From positions 1-41,035 of IMG/VR virus record IMGVR_UViG_3300033143_002635: 41,035 nucleotides of DNA; one strand, written 5' to 3'. Shown one piece after another: positions 22,664-38,554 of this stretch. Both the position numbers and the translations under genes were made by a program. The DNA comes from a virus. The stretch's first letter is position 1; the number at the start of each line of letters is the position of its first letter. The notes beneath the pieces were generated by a model. It was not told the DNA's origin, did not search any database, and was given only the letters and a program-made list of their open reading frames with translations.

Positions 22664-24052
22664 ATGGCTAACCCGAACTTTTTTTACGATGAACAAATAA
22701 GACGATTCCTACTGCAATTCGCTAGAATGTTTAGCAACTTTGAAGTAGAATACGGCGTTGACGGCGTAACTAAATTGCCAACGTACATGCGCGTACCAGT
22801 ACGCTATGGTGATGCAAGTCGTCAGGCACAGACTATTATGCAACAAAATAGTCAGAACAATGTGCCGTGTGCTCCGCAAATGTCTTTTTATATTACAGAC
22901 TTAAAGTACGATAGAAAGCGCGTACAAGAGCCGCATCATGTTGATAGACGTAACGTCAGACAGCGTGAATGGAACGAAGATTCGCAAACATACGAAGAAA
23001 CACAAGGCAATGCATTTACTGTAGAACGTCCAATGCCTACACCGTATGAGCTAAGTTTAAATTTAGATATTTGGACTACTAATACAAATATGAAAATGCA
23101 ATTACTTGAACAGATATTACCATTATTTAATCCATCACTGGAAATACAAAGTACAGATAACTATTTAGACTGGACAAGTTTAAGCGTTGTTGAAATCGAC
23201 AATGTTAAATGGAGTAGCAGAAGTGTTCCACAAAATGACAATAATATAGACATTGCTACACTATCATTTAAGTTACCTATATGGATTAGTCCGCCTGCAA
23301 GGGTTACTAAAGAAGGTGTCATTCATAAAGTTATTGCCAGCGTGTACGACGAGGACGGAATATACGTAGATGCTATCAGCAGTGATGACTTATTACTCGG
23401 CACACGAATTAAAATTACACCACATGGTTATCAAATATTATTATTAGGTAACGAGTTACGTATACTACCGGTGACTGAACCACTACAAGACGATGGAGTC
23501 ACATCTACTGTAATTATTCCAGACAGCGACATTAACTGGCACGGTGTTATCGACGAGTACGGTGTACTAAATGATGGCATTACACAAATTAGATTAGAAT
23601 CTGAAGAGATGGATGAGGCTGATATCATAGGCACAGTAGCATATCATCCGGCAGACGATAACATATTATTATTTGCTATAGATCCAGACACACTCAACAG
23701 TAATACACTACCGCCTATAGACGCTGTAATAGATCCGCTTGCTAGTGGACCAGGAAGTGGGTTGCCTGCTGCGGCCAATGGCCAAAGATATTTACTTACA
23801 GAAGATACTAATTTAGGTGACACTGCGGCGTGGAATGGTCCGGGCTCAGAGTTCATAGCATCCAAAAATGATGTAATTGAATTTAACAGTGGTGAGTGGA
23901 ATGTAGTATTCCACGCTGATTCACATCCTACTAAAGAATACATTACTAATGCTACTACTAACGATCAGTTCAAATGGAAGAAAGAAGATGGTGAGTGGGC
24001 GCGTAGTTACGAAGGTATTTACCCTGGAGGCCGTTGGGGACTGGTTTTGTAA
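22664..24052 (+). CDS. 15: Tail sheath stabiliser/completion protein, gp15-like
   Basis: T4 gp15 caps the tail and connects it to the neck. The first 240 residues align with T4 gp15: ANPNFFYDEQIRRFLLQFA (T4 FGYFYNSSFRRYATLMGDLF), MRVPVRYGDASRQAQ (T4 IRVPITYASKEH), PTPYELSLNLDIWTTNTN (T4 PIKMIYELSIFTRYEDD) and MQLLEQILPLFNPSLEIQ (T4 FQIVEQILPYFQPHF). The protein is 462 residues against 272 in T4. The extra C-terminal part carries a domain with RYLLTEDTNLGD and FKWKKEDGEWARSYEG and ends GGRWGLVL, as I recall for marine T4-like phages. An AAAGAG site precedes the ATG. Confidence 0.92.
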   Translation: MANPNFFYDEQIRRFLLQFARMFSNFEVEYGVDGVTKLPTYMRVPVRYGDASRQAQTIMQQNSQNNVPCAPQMSFYITDLKYDRKRVQEPHHVDRRNVRQREWNEDSQTYEETQGNAFTVERPMPTPYELSLNLDIWTTNTNMKMQLLEQILPLFNPSLEIQSTDNYLDWTSLSVVEIDNVKWSSRSVPQNDNNIDIATLSFKLPIWISPPARVTKEGVIHKVIASVYDEDGIYVDAISSDDLLLGTRIKITPHGYQILLLGNELRILPVTEPLQDDGVTSTVIIPDSDINWHGVIDEYGVLNDGITQIRLESEEMDEADIIGTVAYHPADDNILLFAIDPDTLNSNTLPPIDAVIDPLASGPGSGLPAAANGQRYLLTEDTNLGDTAAWNGPGSEFIASKNDVIEFNSGEWNVVFHADSHPTKEYITNATTNDQFKWKKEDGEWARSYEGIYPGGRWGLVL

Positions 24053-24058
24053 TTTAAT

Positions 24059-24066
24059 GATAAATA
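24059..24066 (+). promoter_or_regulatory. T4-type late promoter (GATAAATA) immediately before homing endonuclease copy 3
   Basis: Plus-strand GATAAATA followed by AACTT and then an ATG at 24072. The predicted +1 is the A of that ATG. It lies seven bases after the gp15 stop. Confidence 0.6.
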
Positions 24067-24071
24067 AACTT

Positions 24072-24839
24072 ATGTTTTATCATTATACTTACTTAATTTC
24101 AAACTTAACCCCACTTAGTGGGAAGCGATATTATATCGGAGTACACTCTGGAGAAATACAACCAGAGTACGACAACTATTACGGGTCTAGCAGATATCTA
24201 AAAGCAGATATAAAAATTCAAGGCCAAGACAACTTTGAAAAAATAATTATTAAATGCTGGGCTACTCGAATACAAGCAAACGATCACGAAATAGAGCTAC
24301 ACGAATCATACAACGTCAAAGCTAATCCATTATTTTACAATCGAGCAAACGCAACATCTTCAGGTTTTACTATTTTTGATAATCCCGAGACCATACTCCG
24401 AATTGCTAAAACCAACAAGTTAATATGGGAAAATAAAACACAAGAAGAAAAAGATGCACATTCTTTGCGCACATCAGAACAATGGAAGAATAAATCTCAA
24501 GAAGAAAAGATAACAATAGGGCAGAAAATATCAAATACAGGTTTACATAATTGGGAAAGTAAAACACAAGAAGAAAAAGATGCACACGCTAAGAAAAATA
24601 AAGATATTTGGGAAAATAAAACACAAGAAGAAAAAGATGCACATTCGTTGCGTTCAAAACTTCAACACTTGAATCGAACTGATCAAGAACAAGAACAAAT
24701 AAACAAAAAGAATTCAGAATCTGTCAGTCAGCTGAGATGGTTTAATAATAAAAAAGTCAATAAACGATGTGTGCCTGGGTATGAGCCTAAAGACTTTACA
24801 CAAGGTCGCTTACCTAATAGGAATCGCAATGCAAAATAA
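24072..24839 (+). CDS. GIY-YIG homing endonuclease (copy 3) with repeated DNA-binding segments
   Basis: The GIY-YIG motifs are YHYTYLISNLTPLSGKRYYI followed by GVHSG. The conserved Arg/Glu region follows in YGSSRYLKAD and DHEIELHESYN. The C-terminal half is made of about four repeats of a charged unit (WENKTQEEKDAHSLR) and ends GYEPKDFTQGRLPNRN, typical of Seg-type binding tails. I choose the ATG at 24072 because a late octamer stands exactly five bases before it; an ATG at 24057 in the same frame is possible. It follows gp15 on the same strand and overlaps the Nudix gene by 11 bases. Confidence 0.88.
   Translation: MFYHYTYLISNLTPLSGKRYYIGVHSGEIQPEYDNYYGSSRYLKADIKIQGQDNFEKIIIKCWATRIQANDHEIELHESYNVKANPLFYNRANATSSGFTIFDNPETILRIAKTNKLIWENKTQEEKDAHSLRTSEQWKNKSQEEKITIGQKISNTGLHNWESKTQEEKDAHAKKNKDIWENKTQEEKDAHSLRSKLQHLNRTDQEQEQINKKNSESVSQLRWFNNKKVNKRCVPGYEPKDFTQGRLPNRNRNAK
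24424..24655 (+). repeat. Degenerate repeats inside homing endonuclease copy 3
   Basis: The DNA encoding WENKTQEEKDAH recurs about four times with modest divergence, the copies near 24427 and 24611 being almost the same. These repeats explain the repetitive C-terminal DNA-binding part and could recombine. Confidence 0.75.
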
Positions 24840-25260
24840 GATAGACGCTGTAGGCATTTGGTTCTATAGCGCAGACACAAAAAGACATCTGTACTTAATG
24901 CGCGATGATAAAAAGTATCACGGGCATTGGGGCTTACCTGGTGGCAAAGTAGAACAAGGTGAAAGCTTATTAGAAGCACTTGAACGTGAGTGCATTGAAG
25001 AAATGAGTTTTATGCCTGAGTACATCAAACTAATTCCAATTGAAAAGTTCACAGCGGATGGTGAACATTTTTGCTATCACACCTTCTATTGTATTGTAGA
25101 AAAAGAGTTTACGCCCATTTTAAATCACGAGCACGTAGGATATAGTTGGATTAATTCTAATATAATACCAAGACCACTGCATCCTGGCTTCTGGGCTACA
25201 CTAAAAATTGATGATGTATTTAAACGTATAGATACGTTAAAAGATCTTTACACTGCTTAA
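24829..25260 (+). CDS. Nudix hydrolase
   Basis: Nudix enzymes cleave nucleoside diphosphates linked to another group, such as oxidised nucleotides, caps or dinucleotide cofactors. I take the start at 24829 (MQNKIDAVGIWFYSADTKRH), next to a TAGGAA site, giving 143 residues. The Nudix box is GGKVEQGESLLEALERECIE followed by EMSF: it keeps the catalytic Glu residues and the RE pair but has Ser where the consensus has Gly near the end. The preceding GHWGLPGG loop is standard. The gene overlaps the endonuclease upstream and converges with the minus-strand gene at 25257 by four bases. The substrate cannot be read from the sequence. Confidence 0.92.
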   Translation: MQNKIDAVGIWFYSADTKRHLYLMRDDKKYHGHWGLPGGKVEQGESLLEALERECIEEMSFMPEYIKLIPIEKFTADGEHFCYHTFYCIVEKEFTPILNHEHVGYSWINSNIIPRPLHPGFWATLKIDDVFKRIDTLKDLYTA

Positions 25261-25925
25261 ATATCGCAGTAAGAAACAAAATCCCGTTGTGACATAACTT
25301 CTAAATTGATATTACAACGCCATTTGTCCGGAGTAGTGCCATCATCGCAAACGTGATAAAAGTTTACATCGTTGTAAGTTTTCATTACTACATTTACCGC
25401 TTCTATCACTTTAGTTTTTTCAACGCCATCTGTATACACATCATACCCAAATAAGTAAATATCTTTGTGTCCATCGAAACAAGCAATCCATAATGCAGTT
25501 GCAGGTGTTACATAGTTTGTGCCATGCGGCACTAGATAAAACTCGCCTGGGTTATTAATGCACAGACGTGTAGTTGTATAAACAATGTGATCGACTTGAT
25601 AGTTAGCTTCTTTAATTGCATCTAAATGATCTTGCTCAAGTACTACTAAAAAGTCTGAGTTCATTTGTTCCCAAATTTCTTCACATCCGTACAGTTGCAT
25701 TTTGTTTTTACTTAACAATCCGCCCCTGTGTTCTTGTAGTCGTACCATTGGAAACTTTTCTATACTTGCGCCTGGCGCTATACAACATGCTCTGTGATTT
25801 ATACTTTCGTTGGTAATTGGATTATCTATCCATTCGCGTTCTTGTTCTTTTTTGCCACCCTTAAAGATAGTATTTGTAATAACAAACTCACCTGTGTACT
25901 CTGTTCTGTATTGTTTAATTGCCAT
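25257..25925 (-). CDS. Sialyltransferase/DUF115-like Rossmann protein, 222 aa
   Basis: Start at 25925 (MAIKQYRTEYTGEFVITNTI), overlapping the stop of the fibre gene upstream (TAATG). Two motifs suggest a glycosyltransferase or MptE-like (DUF115) fold: an N-terminal nucleotide-binding-type turn CIAPGASIEKFP (compare GxGPSL), and near residue 150 TPATALWIACFDGHKDIYLF followed by GYD, matching the T/S..A..A...G.K.IYL.G.D pattern of CstII-like sialyltransferases and DUF115 proteins. It may transfer a sugar to a fibre or to the host surface; the family assignment is by pattern only. Its place at the end of the tail-fibre operon fits a modification role. Confidence 0.5.
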   Translation of the reverse strand: MAIKQYRTEYTGEFVITNTIFKGGKKEQEREWIDNPITNESINHRACCIAPGASIEKFPMVRLQEHRGGLLSKNKMQLYGCEEIWEQMNSDFLVVLEQDHLDAIKEANYQVDHIVYTTTRLCINNPGEFYLVPHGTNYVTPATALWIACFDGHKDIYLFGYDVYTDGVEKTKVIEAVNVVMKTYNDVNFYHVCDDGTTPDKWRCNINLEVMSQRDFVSYCDI

Positions 25926-27022
25926 TAACCAATCCACCACAAACCACTTATTGTGCCTGCGGCGTTCGCTGGATCTACTCTCCAGTAATCACCTTGCTTT
26001 ACATTCATTACTAAACTAGCGTATTGTCCTTCTCTACCATTTACAAGAGTCCGCATTGTTGTTGGTACTGATGCTGCGTCCGTATAACCACGTAATTCGG
26101 TACTAGCATTACTACCAGCTTCTTTTCTAAGGCCGTAAACAACCAAGTCGGTTGCTGCTAAGTAATTTGTACTAATTGAATAACTGTTCCAGCCTGAGAA
26201 CCCTGTGCTACTAGCTGGAGGTGGGTTGCCTGCACTGTAGTAATAACTACCTTCTTGTCCGTCTAATAGATCAGAGTCAAGTCCACTGGTTGTGCCGTCT
26301 ACTGTTTTAATACTCGTTAATAACTGTGCCGCTGTAACTGCACCAGTATTGCCGCCAACACTTAATACAACATCTGTTGGTGTTAATAGATCGCTCCAAT
26401 CTGCCATTGTGCCGGCTACGCCGCCATTGTGCGCGTATGTTTTATTTAAGTCGGTACGTATAGCTATATCACCTTCTTGTGCTGTAAGAGCAAGCTGCGC
26501 AACTTCACTGACTACTGTAAAGACGTCTGTCAATGCAAGTGCCGGTAATTGCGCCGAAGGTATTTTTAATCCTGCATCTAAAGTTGCTATGCCATTTGCA
26601 ATACCTTTATCACTTGGAAGTAAATATGATTGTAAATCACTTATTTGCCCTTCTGTAACAGAAATAGTTTCAAATGCTACTACACCGCCACCGTCTGTTG
26701 TTAGTACTTGTCCATCTGTACCATCTGCTGCCGGAAATGCAAATGCATCTGTAGCTAAGTTCTTAACTTGCAAATCTGCATACGAGGTAAATGCTAAGTC
26801 ACCTGACGATTCACTGTCTGCTGTTGTTTGCACAAACGCAAATTGTTGAGCTGACTTATCCCAAAGTATACCTACGTTGTCACCAGTTGATCCTCGGTTA
26901 ATTATAATACCTAAGTCACTAGTATTTGCACCTGTTAGTGCTGAATTAATCTCAAGAATTGGATCTTCAATTTTAGTAATACTTGTATTTAATTGATTAA
27001 AATTTGGTCTCGTAAATGCCAT
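25925..27022 (-). CDS. Tail-fibre-like protein, 365 aa
   Basis: A modular virion protein. The N-terminus (NTSITKIEDPILEINSALTG) resembles the fibre attachment modules that carry a VEDPILVL-type string in the 1,771-residue protein (33239-38554). The segment SGLDSDLLDGQEGSYYYSAG repeats a module (GLDADLLDGQEGTYY) present there too. The C-terminus GYTDAASVPTTMRTLVNGRE, then WRVDPANAAGTISGLWWIG, looks like a small receptor-facing domain. A ribosome-binding site (AAAGGAATAAG) precedes the ATG. An imperfect sigma70-like element (TTGACT, 15-base spacer, TATACT) lies upstream but is weak. Confidence 0.75.
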   Translation of the reverse strand: MAFTRPNFNQLNTSITKIEDPILEINSALTGANTSDLGIIINRGSTGDNVGILWDKSAQQFAFVQTTADSESSGDLAFTSYADLQVKNLATDAFAFPAADGTDGQVLTTDGGGVVAFETISVTEGQISDLQSYLLPSDKGIANGIATLDAGLKIPSAQLPALALTDVFTVVSEVAQLALTAQEGDIAIRTDLNKTYAHNGGVAGTMADWSDLLTPTDVVLSVGGNTGAVTAAQLLTSIKTVDGTTSGLDSDLLDGQEGSYYYSAGNPPPASSTGFSGWNSYSISTNYLAATDLVVYGLRKEAGSNASTELRGYTDAASVPTTMRTLVNGREGQYASLVMNVKQGDYWRVDPANAAGTISGLWWIG

Positions 27023-27101: not shown

Positions 27102-28049
27102 TTATCTACAAGGAATAACAGAATCTTCGCGAGCCATACATCTCATACCTTTAGCTTCTAAATTAGTTTTATTAAAAGTTAAATAATTATTAAGTATTAA
27201 TTCTGAATTATCTTCTAAAAAATTAGCAATTATATTTCCATCTGGAATTGCACAACAATCAGCAACATTCCCATCAGCAGTAATATACATAAATAGATTT
27301 GTCAACTGAGGGCAAGGTACATTTACATCCGCTGTTTGATATGCAGGATCATAAGATAATGTATGAATATAACCTAATTGTTTAGCTTCCTTATCACAGT
27401 ATTCAAATATCTCTTTAGCTTCTAATCCTTTTCTAAAAGCATTACCCACACCAGTACTTTCCCAAACTCGTATACGGTTAACACCTAAGTCTGCTGCTTG
27501 CTGAAATATACTTTTAACTTCTTTTAAGTTATACTTTCCAATGGTAGTAGTGGTTGTTACTTCAATATCATTGGCAACCAGATGTTTAATTCCTGCTACT
27601 TGTTTGTCAAAAGAACCTACTACACCGTGAACGTTGTCATGATGTTTCAAACCTTGCCAATTTATTTGAACTTGTCTGACGTTATGTTGTTTGAGTTCTG
27701 CCGCCATTTCACTGGTTATATGTTCACCATGCGAAGCAATATGAAGTAAGAAGCCTGCATCGTTAGTCATTTTTACAAATGTCATGAAGTGTTTATGTTC
27801 AGTTGGTTCGCCACCTGTCAATGTAATTTGCTTAATACCAATTTGCTTACATTTCTCTAGAACAGTTTCAAACATTTCGATAGACATTTGATTATCTAAG
27901 TTATGGTTAAATCCACCATAGCACCAACTGCATTTATGTGAACAGTTGTCGCATATAGCAATGTACGCCCATTTAGGAATACCATCAAACTGTTTAATCT
28001 TTTGCAACGACGAATAATTAGATTCCCTAGAGAATGAAACCATACACAT
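27102..28049 (-). CDS. Radical SAM enzyme with a SPASM/twitch-type C-terminal motif
   Basis: Radical SAM enzymes use a 4Fe-4S cluster and S-adenosylmethionine to start radical chemistry. The start is the ATG at 28049 (MCMVSFSRES), overlapping the stop of the micro-gene upstream (TAATG). The cluster motif is CSHKCSWC (Cys36, Cys40, Cys43; CX3CX2C), followed by the SAM-binding LTGGEPTEH. The C-terminal part has C-X13-G-X4-C (CPQLTNLFMYITADGNVADC), matching the CX9-15GX4C signature of SPASM/twitch domains, then more Cys (CC, CMARE, and a terminal PCR). Such domains are common in enzymes that modify peptides or proteins. A Shine-Dalgarno (AAGGAG) inside the micro-gene serves the start. It sits among tail-fibre and adhesin genes. 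Confidence 0.9.
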   Translation of the reverse strand: MCMVSFSRESNYSSLQKIKQFDGIPKWAYIAICDNCSHKCSWCYGGFNHNLDNQMSIEMFETVLEKCKQIGIKQITLTGGEPTEHKHFMTFVKMTNDAGFLLHIASHGEHITSEMAAELKQHNVRQVQINWQGLKHHDNVHGVVGSFDKQVAGIKHLVANDIEVTTTTTIGKYNLKEVKSIFQQAADLGVNRIRVWESTGVGNAFRKGLEAKEIFEYCDKEAKQLGYIHTLSYDPAYQTADVNVPCPQLTNLFMYITADGNVADCCAIPDGNIIANFLEDNSELILNNYLTFNKTNLEAKGMRCMAREDSVIPCR

Positions 28050-28144
28050 TAAGCTACGGCTCCTTTCCAAACGCCGCCTGCTTTTACATAAACAGTATTT
28101 AGAGTTGACTGAGTAACACTATTTGTTACTCTTAAATCTGCCAT
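28049..28144 (-). CDS. 31-residue micro-gene coupled to the radical SAM enzyme
   Basis: ATG at 28144 with an AAGGAA ribosome-binding site; stop TAA at 28051-28049 overlaps the radical SAM ATG. The peptide starts MADLRVTNSVTQSTLNTVYV and ends KAGGVWKGAVA. It resembles the first part of the glycine-rich adhesin (MADLRVKNGGVWTTPNTVYV), and the first 19 bases are identical. It has one Tyr, one Trp and the VYVKxxGxWK motif. It could be a precursor peptide for the radical SAM enzyme, a truncated adhesin N-terminus kept as a leader, or a remnant. The intact frame, ribosome site and coupling make translation likely. Confidence 0.7.
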   Translation of the reverse strand: MADLRVTNSVTQSTLNTVYVKAGGVWKGAVA

Positions 28145-28153
28145 AATAATTCC

Positions 28154-28810
28154 TTACTTAAAGTTATAATACTTAAACCTATTTGGAAGGTTTGTAGAAT
28201 TATCTATTGTTAAACCAAAATAATCGTTAGCTTCAACTGTTACACCTACCTTAGGTACTGCCAATCCAAAATAAGATGCTATTGTAGCCATTTCGGTGTC
28301 AGTAGCTTTAAAGTATAAATCATAATATGATGAGCTTGCTACACCAGTATCAGAATAACCAACAGCAATATACGTTGTGTCTAAATCTAATGTTACAGGC
28401 ATAGTTAAAGGGATACTATCTATTTTACCCATTGCTTTAAATGACATAGTGCTATCATCTAGATTATATTTTCTAGCATGAACAGGTAGCCATTGAGTAA
28501 CTGTACAATTCAAGTTAAAATCTGCTTGGTCAATTGAATTAATTAGAGGCACTATATGACTACTCATGTAAGCTGACATTGAATGATAATTATATCCTGC
28601 TGCAACATTTACATCAGATTCAGCAACCCATTGCGGTGCTTGATTATAAGTTATACTACCTTCAATGTATTCAAACGGTATAACATCAACTAATGCTAAG
28701 ATGTCTTCGTTAATATTTTTTGGTGCATCAGGTAAAGCAAACTCATCTGCTTTATATAATGTACGCTGAATAGAATTGTCAATCCACATTTCTTCTACTA
28801 CTATACTCAT
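28154..28810 (-). CDS. Hypothetical protein next to the glycine-rich adhesin, 218 aa
   Basis: A beta-rich protein of unknown function (MSIVVEEMWIDNSIQRTLYK at the start). It contains FEYIEGSITYNQAPQWVAES, a strand-rich centre with PLTMPVTLDLDTTYIAVGYS and a C-terminal VEANDYFGLTIDN. It starts inside the stop of the adhesin gene (ATGA) and is read between the adhesin and the micro-gene. Co-translation with the adhesin suggests a chaperone or accessory fibre part; that is inference from position only. Confidence 0.72.
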   Translation of the reverse strand: MSIVVEEMWIDNSIQRTLYKADEFALPDAPKNINEDILALVDVIPFEYIEGSITYNQAPQWVAESDVNVAAGYNYHSMSAYMSSHIVPLINSIDQADFNLNCTVTQWLPVHARKYNLDDSTMSFKAMGKIDSIPLTMPVTLDLDTTYIAVGYSDTGVASSSYYDLYFKATDTEMATIASYFGLAVPKVGVTVEANDYFGLTIDNSTNLPNRFKYYNFK

Positions 28811-29649
28811 ACTTGAGCTCCTTTAACTTGTGTGCTGTTGTTACCTGAAATCCAGGTTATAGCGTTACCGTTAGCATTTATTGATTTGCCACCAGTTCCG
28901 CCTGCAGATATTACATACAAGGAGTCATTCGATATACCTGGTAAGCCGGCTTCTCCCCAATAACCTCCTCGGTTGCCGTACTGTCCGCCCAATACATTAA
29001 GGTAACCGCCATTGCCAGGCGCAGTAACTGAACCGTTAGTAGCTATGGATACAGTGTATTGTGCATCTATAATCTCTGCACCAGCTAGTCCGCCGACTTG
29101 ACCCTGGCCGCCGCCACCGCCGCAGCCGGCATCGCCTGGCTCTTGTTTAACTGCACCACCGCCACCGCCGCCGCCAAAGATAGAACCCGCATTAGTAATA
29201 GTCATTGGTACCGTTGTATAAATTGCTGTTCCACCTGTAGAACCAGGTGTAGCCGAACCAGATGAACCGGTGGTAGTACGACCACCAACAGCACCAGCTC
29301 CATAAATTAATCCGTTATTAATTAATGTAATAGTACTACCAATTGGTAAACCGCTCGTATCAAACGATGGGTTAGTATACAATGTGCTATAGACCTGTAC
29401 ACCTGCATCAATTGTTACTACTACATCTACCGCACTTAATGGACTACCCAATGCAGTAAATAAATTAAAGTTAGCAACATTTGCAGAAATAGTTAATGGA
29501 ATCGATGAAACACTAGCCCATACTTCTTTCCATGAGCCAGCTTCTCTTACATGCACTGCTGAGCATTCTTTCCATACACCTGCTTCTTTTACATAAACAG
29601 TGTTTGGAGTTGTCCAAACACCTCCATTTTTTACTCTTAAATCTGCCAT
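28807..29649 (-). CDS. Glycine-rich phage adhesin, gp38-like
   Basis: The N-terminus has three related units with the pattern VxVKxxGxWK (NTVYVKEAGVWKEC, SAVHVREAGSWKEV), a phage tail-attachment motif. The C-terminal two thirds contain glycine-rich runs (NAGSIFGGGGGGGAVK, GDAGCGGGGGQGQVGG, LNVLGGQYGNRGGYWGEAGL) alternating with short hydrophobic strands. This is the arrangement of the polyglycine-II adhesins of T-even gp38 and related receptor-binding proteins. The protein should sit at the fibre tip and bind the host surface. It shares its N-terminus with the 31-residue peptide downstream. The Shine-Dalgarno is AAAGGAATAAGG. Confidence 0.8.
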   Translation of the reverse strand: MADLRVKNGGVWTTPNTVYVKEAGVWKECSAVHVREAGSWKEVWASVSSIPLTISANVANFNLFTALGSPLSAVDVVVTIDAGVQVYSTLYTNPSFDTSGLPIGSTITLINNGLIYGAGAVGGRTTTGSSGSATPGSTGGTAIYTTVPMTITNAGSIFGGGGGGGAVKQEPGDAGCGGGGGQGQVGGLAGAEIIDAQYTVSIATNGSVTAPGNGGYLNVLGGQYGNRGGYWGEAGLPGISNDSLYVISAGGTGGKSINANGNAITWISGNNSTQVKGAQV

Positions 29650-29660
29650 GCCTTATTCCT

Positions 29661-30167
29661 TTAATTGTTTAACTTTACTTGCTCGGGTTGAGCAATTGTA
29701 ATTAATTCTTGTTCTTTATTTAGCGTGTTTAACATTATACTCGACGCAATTTCATCAGGCAGGACTAAAATTTGTTCAAGAGTTGCGACAGATATTTGGC
29801 CGGTTCCTAATTTTTCTAATGCTGCTTTTTTACTATAGTACTGTATCCAATGTTCACACTCTGCAGATTCGAAACCGGCTTCCCAATATTCATCTGGTGT
29901 TGCGTCAATTAATTGTTTTCTCATTTCTAGAAAGTTCGCCAGGCGTCTTTCTGCGTAACCGTAAGTATTATTTAATAACGATTCTCCGATTATTATATTC
30001 CCAGTGCCAACACCGCGATCATCATGCTTAAATAATTCCGCTTCACTAACTCCTGCTGTTATTTCATTTAATAAATCAGCCGCTTTTGCTTCAGCGGCTG
30101 ATATATCATATATAGAATATAAAGTTCTAAAGAGTTCTTTATTAATATACATCTTTTCAAAAAGCAT
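29661..30167 (-). CDS. Hypothetical protein in the fibre operon, 168 aa
   Basis: A helical, slightly acidic protein starting MLFEKMYINKELFRTLYSIY. It includes EYWEAGFESAECEHWIQYYS and several short amphipathic helices. No motif is recognised. A ribosome-binding site (GGGGAA) precedes the ATG. Genes of this size beside adhesins are often fibre-assembly chaperones; that is only positional inference. Confidence 0.7.
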   Translation of the reverse strand: MLFEKMYINKELFRTLYSIYDISAAEAKAADLLNEITAGVSEAELFKHDDRGVGTGNIIIGESLLNNTYGYAERRLANFLEMRKQLIDATPDEYWEAGFESAECEHWIQYYSKKAALEKLGTGQISVATLEQILVLPDEIASSIMLNTLNKEQELITIAQPEQVKLNN

Positions 30168-30179
30168 TATAATTCCCCG

Positions 30180-31592
30180 TTATTCATATTGGAACCAAAC
30201 ATCACCATCGACGCCGCCTGTTGGCGCAGATAAAGAAACAGTTTTAGTACCGCCGCCCCACTTAGTGGAATCTGTAGCTGAAGTAGCTGTTGTAGCTGTT
30301 GTAGCCAATGTTGCTGTTGCTGAATTACCAGAACAAGCTGCTGACGTAGTTGCTGTCAATGAATTACCAGAACAAGCTGCTGACGTAGTTGCTGTTGCTG
30401 AATTACCAGAACAAGCTGCTGACGTAGTTGCTGTCAATGAATTACCATTCAACGCACCATAAAAAGTTGTAGCATAAGCTGCTTGGAACTTTGCACCTGC
30501 TGAACCTAAGTCATGTACGTTAGTGCCTTGTGGAAGTAAATCACCGTTAATGCTATCGCCAGTATTTGAAATAAACGCATCATCAACGTTTAAAGTGTTA
30601 CCGATGTACGATAAGTTTGTACCAGCACCAACTTGTGTTGGGCTCATGAATATACGCCATGCCGCATCAGCTGCATCATACACATATCCATAACCGAAGT
30701 AATATGCTAACTCTTGTTCAACAAAAATAGCATCTGATCCAGATGGTGCAATATCTGTATATGATACACCTTCAACCCAGCTACCCGGAGTCCAAGTAGG
30801 GTCGAGTTGAACGATATGATCATCAAGCCCAGTAAACACGCCTTCTGCTACTGCTGGGTGACTAATTGAAATACCGTAACGGACAACGCGATTTGCAGCA
30901 ATTTCAGTAACTGAATTCATTATAACTACCCAAGAACCTGATTGTACTTGAATTAAATCACCAGGAATAACTGCTGTACCTGACCACGTTGCTGTTGCAT
31001 TTACTAAATAACCTTCGCCTTCAACCATTGATGGTTCAGCTGATACTTCGTTAATTACGTTAACGAATGATACTGGAGCTTTCCAAGTAATACCGCCAAC
31101 TAATGAATCAACGTATGCTTTATTCACTAAGTGATTTGCATTAGCCGGAGCAGTTGCCCAGGCAATAGAGCCAGCTACGTCAATAGTTAAATCACTTGTA
31201 ACCGTGTCTGGAACATCACTTCGTGCGTATGAAGCACCTTCGATACCGTCTAATGTATCAGCATCAAGAAGCGTACCAGTGCCATCTACCGTTAATAACG
31301 CAGCTAAAATTTCAGCTGCTGATTGATCAGATGTTGCACTTGGCTCAATAAGAGCTAATGCTGCTTTTTCTGCATCTGTGTATGCATTTGTATTTGCATT
31401 TAATTCATACTGTGTTTTAACGTCAGCATCTGATAATGATTGACTTGCTACGATATCAATAACATTGTTACCGCTGTCTTTCATGTAGACTTTGCCGTCT
31501 GCTGTATTAAGAGCTAGTTCGCCTGGAACTAGATCCCCTGTTAGTGGAACCTTTGCTGCTTCTGAACTACTTTTTAAAATTATTTGTGACAT
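30180..31592 (-). CDS. Tail-fibre protein, paralogue B (470 aa)
   Basis: Virion fibre protein beginning MSQIILKSSSEAAKVPLTGD, the LKSSSxAxKxPLxGDLxxGELxxN attachment module found at the start of many phage fibres. Residues about 170-330 (WKAPVSFVNVINEVSAEPSM, IQVQSGSWVVIMNSVTEI, FVEQELAYYFGYGYVYDA) are nearly the same as in the neighbouring paralogue A. The C-terminus diverges: it has a TSAACSGNSATAT repeat encoded by 39-bp DNA repeats and ends GGVDGDVWFQYE. A GGAGG ribosome-binding site lies before the ATG. It follows paralogue A after three bases. Confidence 0.85.
   Translation of the reverse strand: MSQIILKSSSEAAKVPLTGDLVPGELALNTADGKVYMKDSGNNVIDIVASQSLSDADVKTQYELNANTNAYTDAEKAALALIEPSATSDQSAAEILAALLTVDGTGTLLDADTLDGIEGASYARSDVPDTVTSDLTIDVAGSIAWATAPANANHLVNKAYVDSLVGGITWKAPVSFVNVINEVSAEPSMVEGEGYLVNATATWSGTAVIPGDLIQVQSGSWVVIMNSVTEIAANRVVRYGISISHPAVAEGVFTGLDDHIVQLDPTWTPGSWVEGVSYTDIAPSGSDAIFVEQELAYYFGYGYVYDAADAAWRIFMSPTQVGAGTNLSYIGNTLNVDDAFISNTGDSINGDLLPQGTNVHDLGSAGAKFQAAYATTFYGALNGNSLTATTSAACSGNSATATTSAACSGNSLTATTSAACSGNSATATLATTATTATSATDSTKWGGGTKTVSLSAPTGGVDGDVWFQYE
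30322..30438 (-). repeat. Three tandem 39-bp repeats inside fibre paralogue B
   Basis: The unit starting GAATTACCAGAACAAGCTGC (plus strand) repeats at 30322, 30361 and 30400, with a fourth, broken start at 30439. Each unit keeps the frame and encodes the 13-residue SGNSxTATTSAAC unit. It is a site of likely copy-number change. Confidence 0.85.
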
Positions 31593-31595
31593 AAA

Positions 31596-33110
31596 TTATC
31601 CTCCTACCACAATTTCTATTATTGCTTCGCCTTCAGAATTTTCTAAAGCCTTACCAATCACTGTACCCATTAATGGGTTAGCTTCTGCGCGAGCTCCACC
31701 ATTGCCATTACTGACCATCATGTCACCTTTCTTAACGCTGCCGCTTACTTTACATGGAACTCGCCCACGCAATGCTATTGCAATACCGTCTGACTCTGCA
31801 TTCATTAAGAACGCTGGGTTTGTAGAAACAATACCTGCTACACGTGAAGTTGCATCATCGTTACAAGTTGTAACTTCAGCGTCGCCGCCAAATGCTACTA
31901 CCGTACCTGGAGCAATTTCTGCATCTGCTGAATAAATTTCTGCTAAATCCGCGTACTGTGCTGATGTACTTTCACCGTAGAATGTAGTTGCGTACATTGC
32001 TTGGAATACTGCACCTGCAGAACCAATGTCATGTACGTTAGTACCTTGTGGAAGTAAATCACCGTTAATGTTGTCACCGGTATTTTTAAGATAGCTGTCA
32101 TCAACATTTAATGTGTTGCCTACATAAGATAAACCAGTACCAGCGCCAACTTGAGTTGGGCTCATGAATATACGCCATGATGCATCACCTGCATCATATA
32201 CATAACCATAACCGAAGTAGTATGCTAACTCTTGTTCAACAAAAATAGCGTCAGACCCAGTTGGTGTAATATCGTCATATGAAGTGCCTTCAACCCAGCT
32301 ACCCGGAGTCCATGATGGATCAAGCTGAACAATATGATTATCTTTACCAGTAAACACGCCTTCTGCTACTGCTGGGTGACTAATTGAAATACCATAACGA
32401 ACTACTCGATTAGCTGCAATTTCTGTTACTGAATTCATTATAACTACCCAAGAACCTGATTGTACTTGAATAAGATCACCAGGGATAACCGCAGTGCCAG
32501 ACCATGTTGCTGTTGCATTTACTAAGTAACCTTCACCTTCAACCATTGATGGTTCAGCTGCTACTTCATCAATTACGTTAACAAACGAAACTGGTGCTTT
32601 CCAAGTGATACCACCTACCAATGAATCAACGTATGCTTTGTTCACTAATTGATTTGCACTAGCCGGAGCAGTTGCCCAAGCAATAGAACCAGCTGCATCG
32701 ATTGTTAAATCACTTGTAACTGTATCTGGAACATCACTGCGTACCAATGAAGATAGGTGGACAGTATCTAATGTATCAGCATCCAATGTTGAACCTGAAC
32801 CATCTACAGTTAACAATGCAGCTAAAATTTCAGCCGCTGATTGATCAGATGTAGCACTTGGCTCAATAAGAGCTAATGCTGCTTTTTCTGAATCTGTAAA
32901 TGCATTTGTTTCTGCATTGTTTTCGTATGCTGCTTTAATATCAGCATCTGATAACGCTTGACTTGCTACGATATCAACTACCGTACCACCTGCGTTTTTG
33001 ATGTAGATCTTTTCATCTGTTGTGTTTACTGCTAATTCGCCTGCAACTAAATCACCTTCGAGAGGTATTTTTGCCGCAATTGAACTACTTTTTAAAACTA
33101 TTGTAGCCAT
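31596..33110 (-). CDS. Tail-fibre protein, paralogue A (504 aa)
   Basis: Shares the attachment module (MATIVLKSSSIAAKIPLEGD) and the middle domain with paralogue B. The C-terminal 130 residues carry the module YADLAEIYSADAEIAPGTVV, VAGIVSTNPAFLMNAESDGI, ALRGRVPCKVSGSVKKGDMM and a GTVIGKALENSEGEA end. I recall this module at the ends of structural proteins in many marine T4-like phages. It ends EIVVGG. The gene is preceded by a 128-base gap with repeats and a hairpin after the giant fibre gene. Confidence 0.87.
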   Translation of the reverse strand: MATIVLKSSSIAAKIPLEGDLVAGELAVNTTDEKIYIKNAGGTVVDIVASQALSDADIKAAYENNAETNAFTDSEKAALALIEPSATSDQSAAEILAALLTVDGSGSTLDADTLDTVHLSSLVRSDVPDTVTSDLTIDAAGSIAWATAPASANQLVNKAYVDSLVGGITWKAPVSFVNVIDEVAAEPSMVEGEGYLVNATATWSGTAVIPGDLIQVQSGSWVVIMNSVTEIAANRVVRYGISISHPAVAEGVFTGKDNHIVQLDPSWTPGSWVEGTSYDDITPTGSDAIFVEQELAYYFGYGYVYDAGDASWRIFMSPTQVGAGTGLSYVGNTLNVDDSYLKNTGDNINGDLLPQGTNVHDIGSAGAVFQAMYATTFYGESTSAQYADLAEIYSADAEIAPGTVVAFGGDAEVTTCNDDATSRVAGIVSTNPAFLMNAESDGIAIALRGRVPCKVSGSVKKGDMMVSNGNGGARAEANPLMGTVIGKALENSEGEAIIEIVVGG

Positions 33111-33139
33111 TTTAAATTTCCTTTTTGTAATAGGTCAAG

Positions 33140-33211
33140 TTATATTTCTATAACGCCTTGTGGGTCAGGATGACTTGCGTCAACGCCCGGTGGGTCAGGA
33201 TAGAGTAGCAT
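33140..33211 (-). other. Possible 23-codon mini-ORF after the giant fibre gene
   Basis: An ATG at 33211 opens MLLYPDPPGVDASHPDPQGV and ends IEI at a TAA, in the same frame as the fibre gene but after two stops. The repeated PDPxGV is encoded by two 20-bp direct repeats. The ribosome site is weak. It may be a remnant of a longer fibre C-terminus or a translated peptide. Confidence 0.3.
33152..33201. repeat. Two 20-bp direct repeats in the gap after the giant fibre
   Basis: AACGCCTTGTGGGTCAGGAT (33152-33171) and AACGCCCGGTGGGTCAGGAT (33182-33201) match at 18 of 20 bases. A 12-bp hairpin (33199-33224, with one G-U pair on the minus transcript and no U-run) follows. No terminator is present in the classical sense. 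Confidence 0.75.
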
Positions 33212-33238
33212 TTGCTACCCTATCGCCCGGTTTCTTAC

Positions 33239-36200
33239 TTAGTACGTACCGCCAGTAATATCTGTATCTGGATCAATTGGTGCTTCAATTGGCGCTGGTG
33301 TTAAACCATCGCTTTCGAAGAACTTAATTGTACCTGCATCATTCTTAATTAACACGCCACCTAAATCAATAGTTGTGCCTGCTAAGTATAAGTCTCTGAA
33401 GCGGTTGCTTGCAGAACCTAAATCGTAAGTTTCAGTAACAGTTGGTAAGATGTGTCCAGTTAATTCTAAGCCAAGTACTGTAGCTTCAAGTGAGTTACCT
33501 GTTCCTGAATCAATACCAACAATTGTAGTAGTTGTTGTTAATTCACGTACTTCAATTACGTCGCCTGTTGCTGGAGCACCAGTAAACGTTAAAGTAGTAC
33601 CACTTACCGCGTAAGCAGTAGTTGGAGTTTGAACAACACCGTTTAAGCTAACAATACATGAAGCAGTTGTTTGTGAACTTGCTAATGTAAATACTGTTTG
33701 TACATCATTACCTGCAAATGTTTCGCTTGCAATAACTGTAAACTCAGTACCAAATGTCTGCCATTGCGTACCATCGTAGTACTCATATTGGTTAACATTT
33801 GTGTTATAACGCATCATACCCGCTACACCAATTGCTGGACGTTCTAGTGTTGTACCACTTGAGAACTTAACTGATGAAGTGTCGCCAACTAAGAACTTAA
33901 TACCTGTTACTGGAGCTGTTATTGCAACACCTACAGAGTTAGTGCCTGCGTCTACACCAAACAATCCTTCGTCTGTTGTACCTTCAACACGGAAGTCATA
34001 ATCTGCGCCGTTGTCGTTAATAACAATTTCAGTACCACTGTTGCCTTCGATGCCGCTACCGCCAATAGTAATATTGTCGATAAATGCTGCGCCAACTACT
34101 GTTAATGTACCAGTTAAGTTAGTATCAACTAATGTTGTAATACCATCTACGTTTAATGTACTATCAAAGTCAACTGCGCCTGTTGCGTGAGCTGTTGTCA
34201 TTGTAGTTAAACCAGTTACACCTAATGTGCTACTCAATGTAGCTGCGCCAGTTACACCTAATGTAGTTGAAACAACCGCACTATTTAATGTAGCTAAACC
34301 ACTTGATGCAATAGTTGTTACTTGTGTATTACCAGTTACGCCTAATGTACCAGTTAAAGTACTGTTACCAGTTACTGCTAAAGTAGTGTTAGCAATTAAG
34401 CCAGCACCTGCTGTTAATGTACCAGTTGTTTGTACGTTATCAGGTAAACCAATTGTTAATGTATCAGTTGCTGTTACTGCAACCTCAACTTCAAGTAATG
34501 TACCGTTAATGGTCATTGTGTCGCCACCTGATATAGCCAATGTAGTCGTACCATCTGTTATATCAAAACCACTTGCTGCAACACTATCAACATAGTCTTT
34601 AGTTGCTGCGTCTTGTGGGTTTGTTGGATCTAATAAGTTAATCCATTTGTTTGCACCTGCATCCAATGTGCTAGTTGCATCAACTGTAATATCACCTACT
34701 GTTAACAAACCATTTAAGTCTGTTGTACCAGCGATAGTAGCTGTTCCTGCAACTACTGTATTACCAGTTGCTGAATCAACGCTGAACTTAGTTGTTGTAC
34801 CATCTGTGATAGTAAACGTTTCAAGTCCGCCTGTTGTGCTACCAACTAATGACATATTAGCTTGGAATGTTGCATCACCAGTTATACCAACAGTGCCACC
34901 GATTGTAACGTTGCCAGTTGTATCTAATGTAGCTGCATCAATATTGCCTGCACCCATGTCGCCTGTGAACGTTGAAATACCAGTTACACTTAATGTACCT
35001 GCTGTTGCTACGTTACCAGTTGTATCTGCTACTGTAAACGCATTTGTGTCTACTGCAATACCACCGTTTAAGTCTGCAAGACCTGACGTTGTTAATGATG
35101 TCATCTGTGTTGCTGCAAGAACGTCTAAAGTTGAACTTAAAGTAGTTGCACCAGTTACACCTAATGTATCAGTGATTGTGATGTCATCTGGTAAGCCAAT
35201 TGTTAATGAATCAACACCAGTTGCAACGTTAACTTCATTTAAAGTACCGCTTACTGTTAATGTGTCGCCACCTGATACAATACTTGGGTTACTACCGTCT
35301 GTAATTGTCCAACCATCGCCTGCTACGCTATCAACGTATGCTTTATTAGCTAAATGCTCGTCTAATGTTGGAGCCGTTACCCATTTAATCTCACCTAGTG
35401 CTGTAACAGTGTAAACACCGTCCATTGTATCACCAGTATCAAGTAATCTGCTATCTAAGTTAGTTTGTAAACCATCTACGTTAGCAATGATGTGTGCGTG
35501 ACTGTCATCAACGATAGCAACCGTTAATGTACCGTTACCTAAGTCTGTTAATGTTACAGAACCTGTAGCATCACCACTTAATGTAATAATTGGATCTGGT
35601 AAGTTAGTTAAATTAGTGTAGTCATTGTAGTAAGTACCTTCTTGACCGTCTAATAAATCTGCATCTAAACCTGAACCTGCACCTTCAACAACGTTAAATG
35701 TTGTACCATCTAATGTTAATTGATTGCCTGGTAAGTAAGCTGGTAAGCCCTGGAACTGTGTGAAGTTCAATGGATCTGTATCAATTACTGCAAGTGCTGG
35801 ATCGCCGCCGCCTGTTAAGCCAACGCCTGTTAATGCCCAACCACTTTTAACGTTTTGTGTACCTTCATCAATGAATGTAAATGTACCTTCTTTAACTTCG
35901 CCTGATGGGTTGCCATCATAATCTGTTGCACGAGTTAATACAAACGGTACACCAACTGTACCTTCTGTAGTACATTTGTAAATACCGTTATCTGCACCTG
36001 CTACTTGATCTTTAACTAATACACGATCGTCAAGTACAATAGTAACACCATCTACAACTAATACGCCAACTGCGTCAGCTGTTAATAGTTTACCAACACC
36101 TGGGCCAGCTGATGCTGTTACTGCTGGAAGGACGCCATCTGTTGCTGCATCACATGAATCTTTAACTAATAGACCAGCTTGTGCCGCATCTAATTGATCT

Positions 36201-38554
36201 TTTGTTACAACGTCTTGTGGGTTAACACCGTTAGCTACGTTAGTGATAACGTTACCGCCCATATCAATTGTTGATGCTGCATCAAATGTAACATCTGTCA
36301 TTGTAGTAGCGCCGTTTAAGTCTGTTGTACCTGTTACAGAAGCCGAAGCAAGTGTAGCAAGACCAACTGTACTTAATGTACCGGCAATTGCAACGTTAGT
36401 TGCTAAGCCGTATGTAATTGCATCTGCTACCGAAGTATCAACTGTAATTTCATCTGCTGTACCATTAACATTAATAGTATCGCCGCCTTGGATAGTAAAT
36501 GGTGTAACACCATCTGTCCACGTGAAGTTAAGTTGAGCTGTTTCTGCATCAATGTAAGCTTTAGTAGCTGCATCTTGTGGGTTGGTTGGATCTGCAACAT
36601 TTGTAATTGCATTTGCGCCAACGTTGATAGTTGCTAATGCATCAAACGTTAAATCATTCATTGAAACTAAACCATTGAAATCCGATGTGCCGTTTGCAAT
36701 TAATGTACCTGTTAATACTGTATTACCAGTTGTATCTGCTACTGTGAACACGCCATCAACATCAATGCCGCCATCTAAACTAGCTAAGCCTGAAGTGTTT
36801 AGAACACCTAAAGTAGTTGTGCCCGTTACACCAAGTGTACCAGTAATTGAAGCTGCATTTGAAACTGTTAAGTTGTTTGAAATAGTAACATCATTTGGTA
36901 AACCAATTGTCATTGTGTCTACTGCTGATACTGCAACATCAACTTCATTTGCTGTACCTTGTAGTGTTAATATATCACCACCTGATATAACTTGAGTTGT
37001 TGTGCCATCATCTAATGTCCAACCAGTTGATGAAATAGTATCAACATACGCTTTAGTTGCTGCGTCTTGGTTAGCTGATGGTTCTGCTAAGTTTGTTAAT
37101 TTGTTTGCACCTGCATCAAAAGTACTTGCTGCATCTAACGTAATGTCAGTTGCTGTAATTGCACCGTTAAAATCTGCTGCGCCTGTTACTGTTAAAGTTC
37201 CGCCTACTGCTGTGTTACCACTTGCAGCGATAACATCAAATGCTGTACCAACTTCAAAAGTTGTGCCGTCAAATGTTAAGTTTGCATCACCTTCTAAACT
37301 ACCGTCTACGCCAGCAATAACAAGTTGGTTATCAGTTAAGTCTGAGATTGTAGCTGAAGCTAAAGTTGATTCACCTGTTACGTCTAATGTACCGCCAATT
37401 GCTGTTGTTCCTGCAATTACCGTGTTACCATTTGTCGAATCAACACTGAATACTGTAAGTGAAACACCATCTGTGATGCTAAACACTTCGCCAGTACCAC
37501 CAGCTAATGTTACATCGTCGTTAAATTCTGAAGTACCAGTTACTGTTAAGTTCGAACCAATTAAAGCTGAACCAGTTGTATCTAATGTAGTTGCGTCAAT
37601 GTTACCAGCTGTCATAGTACCTGTAAATGATGAAGTACCAGTTACACCTAAGTTACCAGTTGTTGTTACGTTACCAGTTAAATCAGCTACAATAAATGCG
37701 CCGTCTACGTCGATACCGCCGTCTAAGCTTGCAACACCAAGTACGTTAATAGCGCCTGAAGCGTCCATTGTTGTAATAGTTGTGTTACCAGTTACACCAA
37801 GTGTACCACCAACAGATGCGTTTGCTGTAATACTAGCTGATGCTAGTGTAGCAAGACCTGATGTGCCTAATGTTGTTAAAGATGTGTCGCCAGTTACGCC
37901 TAACGTACCACCTACTGTAGCATTGTTAGTTACTTGAGCACTATCTAAAGTAGCTAAGCCACTTGTTGATACAGTAGTTAATGTTGTGTTATCAGTTACA
38001 CCAAGTGTACCACCAACAGTTACGTTACCAGTTGTGTCAAGTGTAGCTGAATCAATATCACCTGCTGTTACTACACCAGTAAATCCTGAAGTACCAGTAA
38101 CAAGCAAGTTGCCCGATAATGATAAATCTGTCATTGCTACTGCTGCGTCAGCTGTTAAGCTGTTTACATGCATATCAGCGTAACCCGAAACTGTTACTGT
38201 CGTGTTTGATTCATCTTCATCTACAAATGCTGCAATAAATTCATCGGCACTTTCGTCCCAAACAAATGCAACGTTTGTATCTGTACCACGTTCGCCAATG
38301 AAACCTACGTCCACTGCCGGTGCGGCTGTTTGTTGTGATGCCAATACTAAGATTGGATCTTCAACAGTTGTGTTTGTTGTGCTAATGGTAGTTGTTGTAC
38401 CATTAACTATCAAATCACCTGTTACTGTCAGACTCGAATCATATGTTAAATTCGCTTCTAACTTACCAGAGGTTACTGAGTTATCTACTAACTTCGATGA
38501 ACCTACGATTGTAGCGTCAGTGATCTGATTATTTTTAATTCTAGTTATAGCCAT
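33239..38554 (-). CDS. Giant repetitive tail-fibre protein (1,771 aa)
   Basis: A very long modular fibre. The N-terminus (AITRIKNNQITDATIVGSSK and TVEDPILVLASQQT) is an attachment module. Most of the length is a beta-helical type repeat built from GTLGVTGNTTLTT, SGLATLDSA, TTGNVTVGG units with Asn, Gly and Thr, interrupted by WTLDDGTTTQVISGGDILTL-type modules (at least five copies) that each include NPQDAATKAYVD. Near the C-terminus is a shared module (SLNGVVQTPTTAYAVSGTTL), then ETYDLGSASNRFRDLYLAGT and the tail PIDPDTDITGGTY. A perfect late promoter and an AGGAGC site precede the ATG. It probably forms a long trimeric fibre. Confidence 0.88.
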   Translation of the reverse strand: MAITRIKNNQITDATIVGSSKLVDNSVTSGKLEANLTYDSSLTVTGDLIVNGTTTTISTTNTTVEDPILVLASQQTAAPAVDVGFIGERGTDTNVAFVWDESADEFIAAFVDEDESNTTVTVSGYADMHVNSLTADAAVAMTDLSLSGNLLVTGTSGFTGVVTAGDIDSATLDTTGNVTVGGTLGVTDNTTLTTVSTSGLATLDSAQVTNNATVGGTLGVTGDTSLTTLGTSGLATLASASITANASVGGTLGVTGNTTITTMDASGAINVLGVASLDGGIDVDGAFIVADLTGNVTTTGNLGVTGTSSFTGTMTAGNIDATTLDTTGSALIGSNLTVTGTSEFNDDVTLAGGTGEVFSITDGVSLTVFSVDSTNGNTVIAGTTAIGGTLDVTGESTLASATISDLTDNQLVIAGVDGSLEGDANLTFDGTTFEVGTAFDVIAASGNTAVGGTLTVTGAADFNGAITATDITLDAASTFDAGANKLTNLAEPSANQDAATKAYVDTISSTGWTLDDGTTTQVISGGDILTLQGTANEVDVAVSAVDTMTIGLPNDVTISNNLTVSNAASITGTLGVTGTTTLGVLNTSGLASLDGGIDVDGVFTVADTTGNTVLTGTLIANGTSDFNGLVSMNDLTFDALATINVGANAITNVADPTNPQDAATKAYIDAETAQLNFTWTDGVTPFTIQGGDTINVNGTADEITVDTSVADAITYGLATNVAIAGTLSTVGLATLASASVTGTTDLNGATTMTDVTFDAASTIDMGGNVITNVANGVNPQDVVTKDQLDAAQAGLLVKDSCDAATDGVLPAVTASAGPGVGKLLTADAVGVLVVDGVTIVLDDRVLVKDQVAGADNGIYKCTTEGTVGVPFVLTRATDYDGNPSGEVKEGTFTFIDEGTQNVKSGWALTGVGLTGGGDPALAVIDTDPLNFTQFQGLPAYLPGNQLTLDGTTFNVVEGAGSGLDADLLDGQEGTYYNDYTNLTNLPDPIITLSGDATGSVTLTDLGNGTLTVAIVDDSHAHIIANVDGLQTNLDSRLLDTGDTMDGVYTVTALGEIKWVTAPTLDEHLANKAYVDSVAGDGWTITDGSNPSIVSGGDTLTVSGTLNEVNVATGVDSLTIGLPDDITITDTLGVTGATTLSSTLDVLAATQMTSLTTSGLADLNGGIAVDTNAFTVADTTGNVATAGTLSVTGISTFTGDMGAGNIDAATLDTTGNVTIGGTVGITGDATFQANMSLVGSTTGGLETFTITDGTTTKFSVDSATGNTVVAGTATIAGTTDLNGLLTVGDITVDATSTLDAGANKWINLLDPTNPQDAATKDYVDSVAASGFDITDGTTTLAISGGDTMTINGTLLEVEVAVTATDTLTIGLPDNVQTTGTLTAGAGLIANTTLAVTGNSTLTGTLGVTGNTQVTTIASSGLATLNSAVVSTTLGVTGAATLSSTLGVTGLTTMTTAHATGAVDFDSTLNVDGITTLVDTNLTGTLTVVGAAFIDNITIGGSGIEGNSGTEIVINDNGADYDFRVEGTTDEGLFGVDAGTNSVGVAITAPVTGIKFLVGDTSSVKFSSGTTLERPAIGVAGMMRYNTNVNQYEYYDGTQWQTFGTEFTVIASETFAGNDVQTVFTLASSQTTASCIVSLNGVVQTPTTAYAVSGTTLTFTGAPATGDVIEVRELTTTTTIVGIDSGTGNSLEATVLGLELTGHILPTVTETYDLGSASNRFRDLYLAGTTIDLGGVLIKNDAGTIKFFESDGLTPAPIEAPIDPDTDITGGTY

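Follow-up and report, generated by a model that had tools for sequence, protein, structure and literature searches.

The window analysed here, the whole 41,035-nt stretch of DNA of record IMGVR_UViG_3300033143_002635, is a 41-kb fragment of an uncultured phage whose neck gene has its nearest matches in Agrobacterium phage Atu_ph07 and Pseudomonas phage PA5oct. Its minus strand carries a tail-fibre operon, the 3' part of which runs in order from a GP38-like adhesin through a 218-aa protein, a microgene and a radical-SAM (rSAM) enzyme to a fibre-like protein. The features concerned are as follows.

29661..38554, minus strand: upstream tail-fibre region, encoding 168-, 470-, 504- and 1771-aa proteins (open reading frame list)
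28807..29649, minus strand: glycine-rich, GP38-like tail-tip adhesin, the proposed substrate, from whose 5' end the microgene was copied (Pfam GP38)
28154..28810, minus strand: 218-aa protein, a remote relative of the c7 family (c7 profile, hhalign, kept motifs)
28150..28155, minus strand: microgene ribosome-binding site AAGGAA, within the segment that aligns to the adhesin gene
28049..28144, minus strand: microgene of 31 codons, of which the first 27 duplicate the start of the adhesin gene, with a TAATG junction to the rSAM gene
28060..28066, minus strand: likely rSAM ribosome-binding site AAAGGAG, inside the WKG codons of the microgene
27102..28049, minus strand: rSAM enzyme of 315 aa with a twitch-like C-terminus (Pfam Radical_SAM, motifs, AlphaFold2 model)
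25925..27022, minus strand: tail fibre-like protein downstream of the rSAM gene (PHROG tail families)

This gene order bears out the placing of the enzyme inside a tail-fibre operon by an earlier note on the same DNA. Two of the upstream tail-fibre genes (30180-31592 and 31596-33110, minus strand) are tandem paralogues with 72% identity over 465 residues which, taken with the copied adhesin leader, suggests that the region is prone to duplication. Elsewhere in the window, open reading frames at 6244-6891 (minus), 21889-22608 (minus) and 23949-24839 (plus) look by eye like GIY-YIG-type homing endonucleases, the last of them overlapping the end of the neck gene. Within the fibre region, a Nudix hydrolase gene (24769-25260, plus; PHROG 6e-25) overlaps the end of an opposing 227-aa gene (25257-25940, minus).

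The enzyme matches Pfam Radical_SAM at 7e-20 and contains every motif previously read in it, namely CX3CX2C (C36/C40/C43), GGEP (residues 79-82) and C246-X13-G-X4-C265. The first two are invariant in 17 sequences and, with the barrel of the model described below, place the enzyme in the radical-SAM superfamily, which is defined by CX3CX2C in a partial TIM barrel and a GGE motif; the start at 28049 is correct because homologues keep the N-terminus MC[LMQ][VI][ST][FY]S. Only seven cysteines are invariant across the set: C2, the three radical-SAM cysteines, C246, C265 and C304. The AlphaFold2 model (pLDDT 86) finds its best structural match in SkfB (6efn; Z 24.8 over 271 residues, 2.9 Å), with SuiB (Z 23.1), BlsE, anSME (Z 22.4) and MoaA (Z 20.2) behind it. 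Of the original "SPASM/twitch" label the second half fits better, the C-terminus being twitch-like and SkfB the closest solved structure to the enzyme. The full seven-cysteine SPASM motif (CX9-15GX4C - CX2CX5CX3C - C) is absent: CX13GX4C and C304 are conserved, CX2CX5CX3C is lacking and there is no Pfam SPASM match. Twitch-type maturases such as SkfB have a short C-terminal extension with one auxiliary iron-sulphur cluster and resemble SkfB/MoaA in structure; the fold match of the predicted model, which can show no cluster, and the three invariant C-terminal cysteines may point to this type, and judged by its motifs the enzyme would be better labelled twitch-type than SPASM. All 25 of the best NCBIfam models stay below their curated cut-offs for this protein.

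The product of the microgene is MADLRVTNSVTQSTLNTVYVKAGGVWKGAVA, followed by a stop codon (28144..28049, minus strand) whose TAA shares one base with the rSAM ATG at 28049 (TAATG). The earlier description, in which 31 codons preceded by a ribosome-binding site of their own read directly into the enzyme, is therefore confirmed. When the microgene is aligned with the 5' end of the adhesin gene, its ribosome-binding site and first 27 codons give a DNA score of 109, where 300 shuffles reach 41 at most, and the two protein N-termini share 67% amino-acid identity over 27 residues (E 4e-7). The likeness ends directly behind the codons for Trp and Lys, at the AAAGGAG that is now the likely ribosome-binding site of the enzyme. 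By this alignment, the microgene is a DNA-level duplicate of the adhesin leader, not an orphan. Insertion of the rSAM gene into a copy of the adhesin gene was ruled out, as no adhesin remainder lies downstream of it. Between microgene and adhesin 5' end there are nine non-synonymous and three synonymous codon changes (dN 0.22, dS 0.29), a tiny sample that gives no sign of purifying selection on the microgene peptide.

The earlier note had pointed to the peptide itself as a possible substrate of the enzyme, which would then modify the 31 residues at Tyr19, Trp26 or Lys27. Small precursor peptides are the targets of SkfB- and SuiB-type enzymes, and the peptide's own ribosome-binding site, its junction with the enzyme and the VYVK..GVWK half that it has in common with the adhesin all speak for such a role. 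Against it, none of the roughly 18 distinct phage loci that encode this enzyme has a VYVKxxGxWK microgene: a scan of the homologous loci found none, and in L055-L058, added later, the gene upstream of rSAM lies within 13 bases of it or overlaps it, so that there is no room for one. Enzymes without any such peptide nearby had been named in advance as evidence against the idea, and the search for the pair in other phage genomes has returned exactly these. Nor do the loci preserve a gene for a short peptide next to the enzyme, as would mark a RiPP maturase with an adjacent precursor. Missing from every homologous locus, copied from the adhesin leader and showing no sign of purifying selection, the micro-peptide is a very improbable substrate. 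What survives of the proposal is the type of enzyme and the broader form in which it would modify a protein.

The TAATG junction is not peculiar to the peptide either. The rSAM start overlaps its upstream gene by one base in seven other loci (L026, L031, L033, L040, L047, L055 and L056), where the upstream genes are quite different, and by 14 bases in many more. These overlaps indicate that tight coupling is a habit of the rSAM gene, and in the window the microgene would supply it. On this view, the ribosome-binding site and short frame of the microgene would feed ribosomes into the rSAM start codon. The microgene could instead be untranslated or without a role, mere debris of the adhesin duplication beside an rSAM cassette that is decaying in this phage. 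Truncation exactly after WK and the lack of a halogenase in the 41-kb window would fit such a history; the rSAM frame is nevertheless intact, as are all its catalytic cysteines and the two ribosome-binding sites, and we consider this explanation unlikely.

Homologues of the enzyme were sought by stepwise profile scans, which were used in place of a single-protein scan of viral contigs that had given no match, and loci were counted after merging repeats. Full-length homologues, 39-50% identical and with the same start, come from one bacterial MAG, of Marinamargulisbacteria (L023), and from uncultured phages, on about 18 distinct contigs. Their median pairwise identity of 45% means that the set is not one recent lineage. 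Among 50,697 records of isolated phages no homologue covers 80% of the rSAM protein, and the 13 records searched of relatives of the window phage, found by neck gene, hold no copy of it. Matches on plasmids were general radical-SAM proteins only, and L061-L067 were rejected as unrelated proteins of the same general kind.

Several other radical-SAM genes were seen in the course of these searches. Neither an adhesin nor a halogenase adjoins the bacterial homologue (L023, 2114-9596), whose neighbours, judged by eye, include further radical-SAM genes, genes like TatA/TatC and one resembling a U32 peptidase. On a siphophage-like contig (L060, 8001-9960), a distant rSAM relative (26%) and a second radical-SAM gene stand directly behind the gene for a 1163-aa tail-like protein. 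Other radical-SAM proteins lie by glycosyltransferase-like genes on the phage contigs L024 (542-2454) and L067 (4364-11408), again by eye, with several in a row on the latter. In two relatives of the window phage, a radical-SAM gene of another sort lies with the virion genes, near the neck gene (L010, 5775-6665; L007, 1946-2842).

The conserved order in the phage loci is fibre gene, GP38-like adhesin, c6 (~140 aa), c7 (~200 aa), rSAM and tryptophan halogenase, so that the companions of the enzyme are an adhesin, the PT-barrel-like c7 protein and a halogenase. A GP38-like glycine-rich adhesin precedes the enzyme in 11 of 18 loci, most of the rest having tail-tip genes of collagen-like or other type there, and a flavin-dependent tryptophan halogenase follows it in 16 of 18 (the exceptions being L041/L042 and L027). 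Often, 2OG-Fe(II) (PF13640) and Asp/Arg (PF05118) hydroxylases are interspersed. Since the tail-tip protein of some loci is collagen-like instead of GP38-like, a substrate sequence common to all of them did not emerge.

The downstream halogenases of the relatives match PF04820 (1.6e-96 and 2.3e-74) and carry the features by which we recognised this family (GxGxxG, catalytic Lys and WxWxIP): GxGxxG is found in all but L036/L037, where the start has possibly been misread, and ATYK and WxWxIP are present in most. The window holds no halogenase and no PF13640 oxygenase in its 41 kb although, as it is a fragment, absence from the whole phage does not follow. Its enzyme set may have been pared down, or the remaining genes could be located beyond the ends of the fragment.

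Halogenases and 2OG oxygenases of phages have been described as auxiliary metabolic genes (PMC10452541, PMC3037559), and those of the loci might likewise be auxiliary metabolic genes that make a small molecule, a halogenated, hydroxylated and perhaps prenylated amino-acid derivative, their adjacency to tail genes reflecting late co-expression. In its passages on the halogenase-2OG cluster of cyanophage S-SSM6a, the article of Iyer et al. 2021 (PMC7824862) reads that cluster as one for a secondary metabolite or for decorating a polysaccharide. Furthermore, the cyanophage halogenase VirX1 takes many free aromatics in vitro, an open active site and a broad substrate range being reported for it with neither biosynthetic context nor natural substrate given (PMC8407142), and cyanophage halogenases exist without this rSAM. 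Three observations weigh on the other side. The set stays directly behind tail-tip genes despite wide divergence of both adhesin types and enzymes, the rSAM enzyme and c7 resemble enzymes that modify peptides, proteins or aromatics, and no dedicated small-molecule scaffold gene was seen in the loci. A metabolic role thus strikes us as rather unlikely.

The c7 protein was modelled on the L036 member with a 12-sequence alignment, giving ten strands in five hairpins with few helices (pLDDT 84); the PT-barrel (ABBA) fold is defined as a ten-stranded antiparallel barrel of alpha-beta-beta-alpha repeats. Foldseek ranks PagF, PirF, LimF and PatF first (E from 4e-4). Among the 50 matches listed by VIA-align all are aromatic or peptide prenyltransferases, including PagF, LimF, PatF and KgpF, with Z 7.3-9.4 over 159-177 of 198 residues and a top match, among those listed, of Z 9.4 over 172 residues. 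Identity to these enzymes is about 10%, c7 has ~200 residues as against roughly 260-430, and the sequence search gave no match. A Z of about 9 at ~10% identity makes the predicted PT-barrel fold likely and says nothing certain of activity. In PT-barrels, basic residues and a tyrosine shield hold the prenyl diphosphate (PMC4786772, PMC3485228). The nearly invariant residues of c7 (K68, K79, K191, Y16, Y50, Y81 and Y193) resemble these, a likeness that is compatible with the same function only.

Three scans in the reverse direction, seeded with c7 subgroups, led, within the limits of such pattern scans, only to contigs already known for rSAM. When the c7 profile was run against all reading frames of the window, its one significant match was the 218-aa protein (E 3.5e-4; next 0.14), a weak similarity that hhalign also detects (E 7e-4). 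The 218-aa protein retains [KR]xY and a C-terminal FKYY, and its gene occupies the operon position of c7. The G+C contents of its gene (0.324) and the rSAM gene (0.338) are both low beside those of the adhesin gene (0.450) and the window (0.391), consistent with the arrival of the two as a pair.

These proteins could themselves be what the enzyme modifies, the substrate being a tail-tip protein of the c6/c7 class, to which the 218-aa protein would answer in the window, with a structural and not an enzymatic function. Genes of the c7 type are the most constant upstream neighbours of rSAM and evolve fast, as virion surface proteins do, and no homology between the c7 and c8 families is detectable by profile. 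However, the predicted barrel keeps its lysines and tyrosines at 20-40% sequence identity, as expected of an active site, and its listed structural matches are prenyltransferases throughout. We give this explanation only a small probability.

The adhesin, rather than the tiny gene next to the enzyme, offers the likeliest target. That of the window matches Pfam GP38 (4.6e-15; 56.5 bits against a cut-off of 25) and clusters at protein level with the adhesins of the homologous loci; the suggestion that an adhesin-like sequence is involved has thus been borne out, as the adhesin both travels with the enzyme and is the source of the microgene. In the GP38-like adhesins of these loci, the glycine-rich part always contains between one and three Trp along with several Tyr. 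Cysteine is missing from 4 of the 12 adhesins, which makes a common Cys thioether unlikely. Four observations together point to the adhesin as substrate: the tail-tip position of rSAM behind fibre and adhesin genes, the peptide-modifying function of its nearest structural relatives, the membership of its usual partners in families acting on indole or phenol rings, and the Trp and Tyr in the glycine-rich part of the GP38-like adhesins.

We therefore propose, with a probability of about 0.52, that a RiPP-like enzyme set modifies the phage's own tail adhesin and that the microgene is a duplicated leader serving translational coupling. In this model, the twitch-type rSAM maturase would belong to a modification set at the tail-fibre tip and, through hydrogen abstraction, would cross-link or otherwise alter side chains in the glycine-rich, aromatic-containing part of the adhesin. 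It would work alongside the prenyltransferase-like PT-barrel protein, joined in the relatives by 2-oxoglutarate hydroxylases and a tryptophan halogenase. Weighing on the other side are the lack of a halogenase and a PF13640 oxygenase in the 41 kb, the weak likeness of the 218-aa protein to c7, the low identity and small size of c7 beside the matched prenyltransferases, the collagen-like tail tips of some loci, and the bacterial homologue with neither adhesin nor halogenase at its side. A fuller version, in which the adhesin is matured in RiPP style by the rSAM enzyme, a miniature PT-barrel prenyltransferase, halogenase and hydroxylases that add cross-links, prenyl, halogen and hydroxyl groups to the tip, is more tentative, and we put it forward as a possibility.

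The interest of the locus lies in its operon and not in its microgene. If adhesin modification is correct, the receptor-binding proteins of phages would exceed the side chains of the genetic code, with a tail-tip chemistry wider than the twenty amino acids, and the recognition of hosts by phages would have a further layer. A natural role would be gained for the halogenases and 2OG oxygenases that are so puzzling in marine phages, and the loci would hold compact enzymes acting on folded or fibrous proteins. Whether the GP38-like adhesin is chemically modified is a directly testable question.

A search of open-licence literature found no published phage rSAM-halogenase pair, modified tail fibres or enzyme set of this kind, and the nearest known systems each share a part of it. 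SkfB, the sporulation killing factor maturase of Bacillus subtilis, matches the rSAM sequence over nearly its whole length (5e-18) and has the same radical-SAM barrel with a cysteine-bearing C-terminal extension. However, identity is 23% and the rSAM scores 74 of the 300 bits of the NCBIfam SkfB cut-off. The phage enzyme also differs in sitting in a tail operon with no conserved precursor-peptide gene beside it, and in having only the three C-terminal cysteines and C2 as invariant cysteines beyond the radical-SAM motif. With the cyanobactin prenyltransferases (PagF, PatF, LimF and KgpF) and dimethylallyltryptophan synthases, c7 has in common the predicted ten-stranded PT-barrel and nearly invariant Lys and Tyr residues; in contrast to them it is shorter, at ~10% identity and with no sequence match, and its prenyl transfer is putative.

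The S-SSM6a cluster likewise combines a phage halogenase with 2OG hydroxylases, whereas its additional carbamoyltransferases and methylase accompany a reading as metabolite or polysaccharide biosynthesis, and the passages on it in that article name no rSAM or adhesin for it (PMC7824862). The VirX1-like halogenases of the cyanophages Syn9, Syn10 and S-RIM44 belong to PF04820, as do the genes after rSAM in the relatives, and are ~30-36% identical to these; no rSAM, c6 or c7 was detected in the cyanophage halogenase loci. In Synechococcus phage syn9 (L050, 6995-10100) and S-RIM44 (L051, 7497-10608), paired tryptophan halogenases stand right behind the tail-fibre genes, followed by many small genes, and these pairs are possibly an rSAM-free version of the same idea. 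Finally, the T-even/S16-type GP38 tail-tip adhesins differ in that modifying enzymes lie behind the window adhesin, while none were found described for GP38 adhesins; in both its match to GP38 and its position at the tip of the tail fibre, the window adhesin is nonetheless like them.
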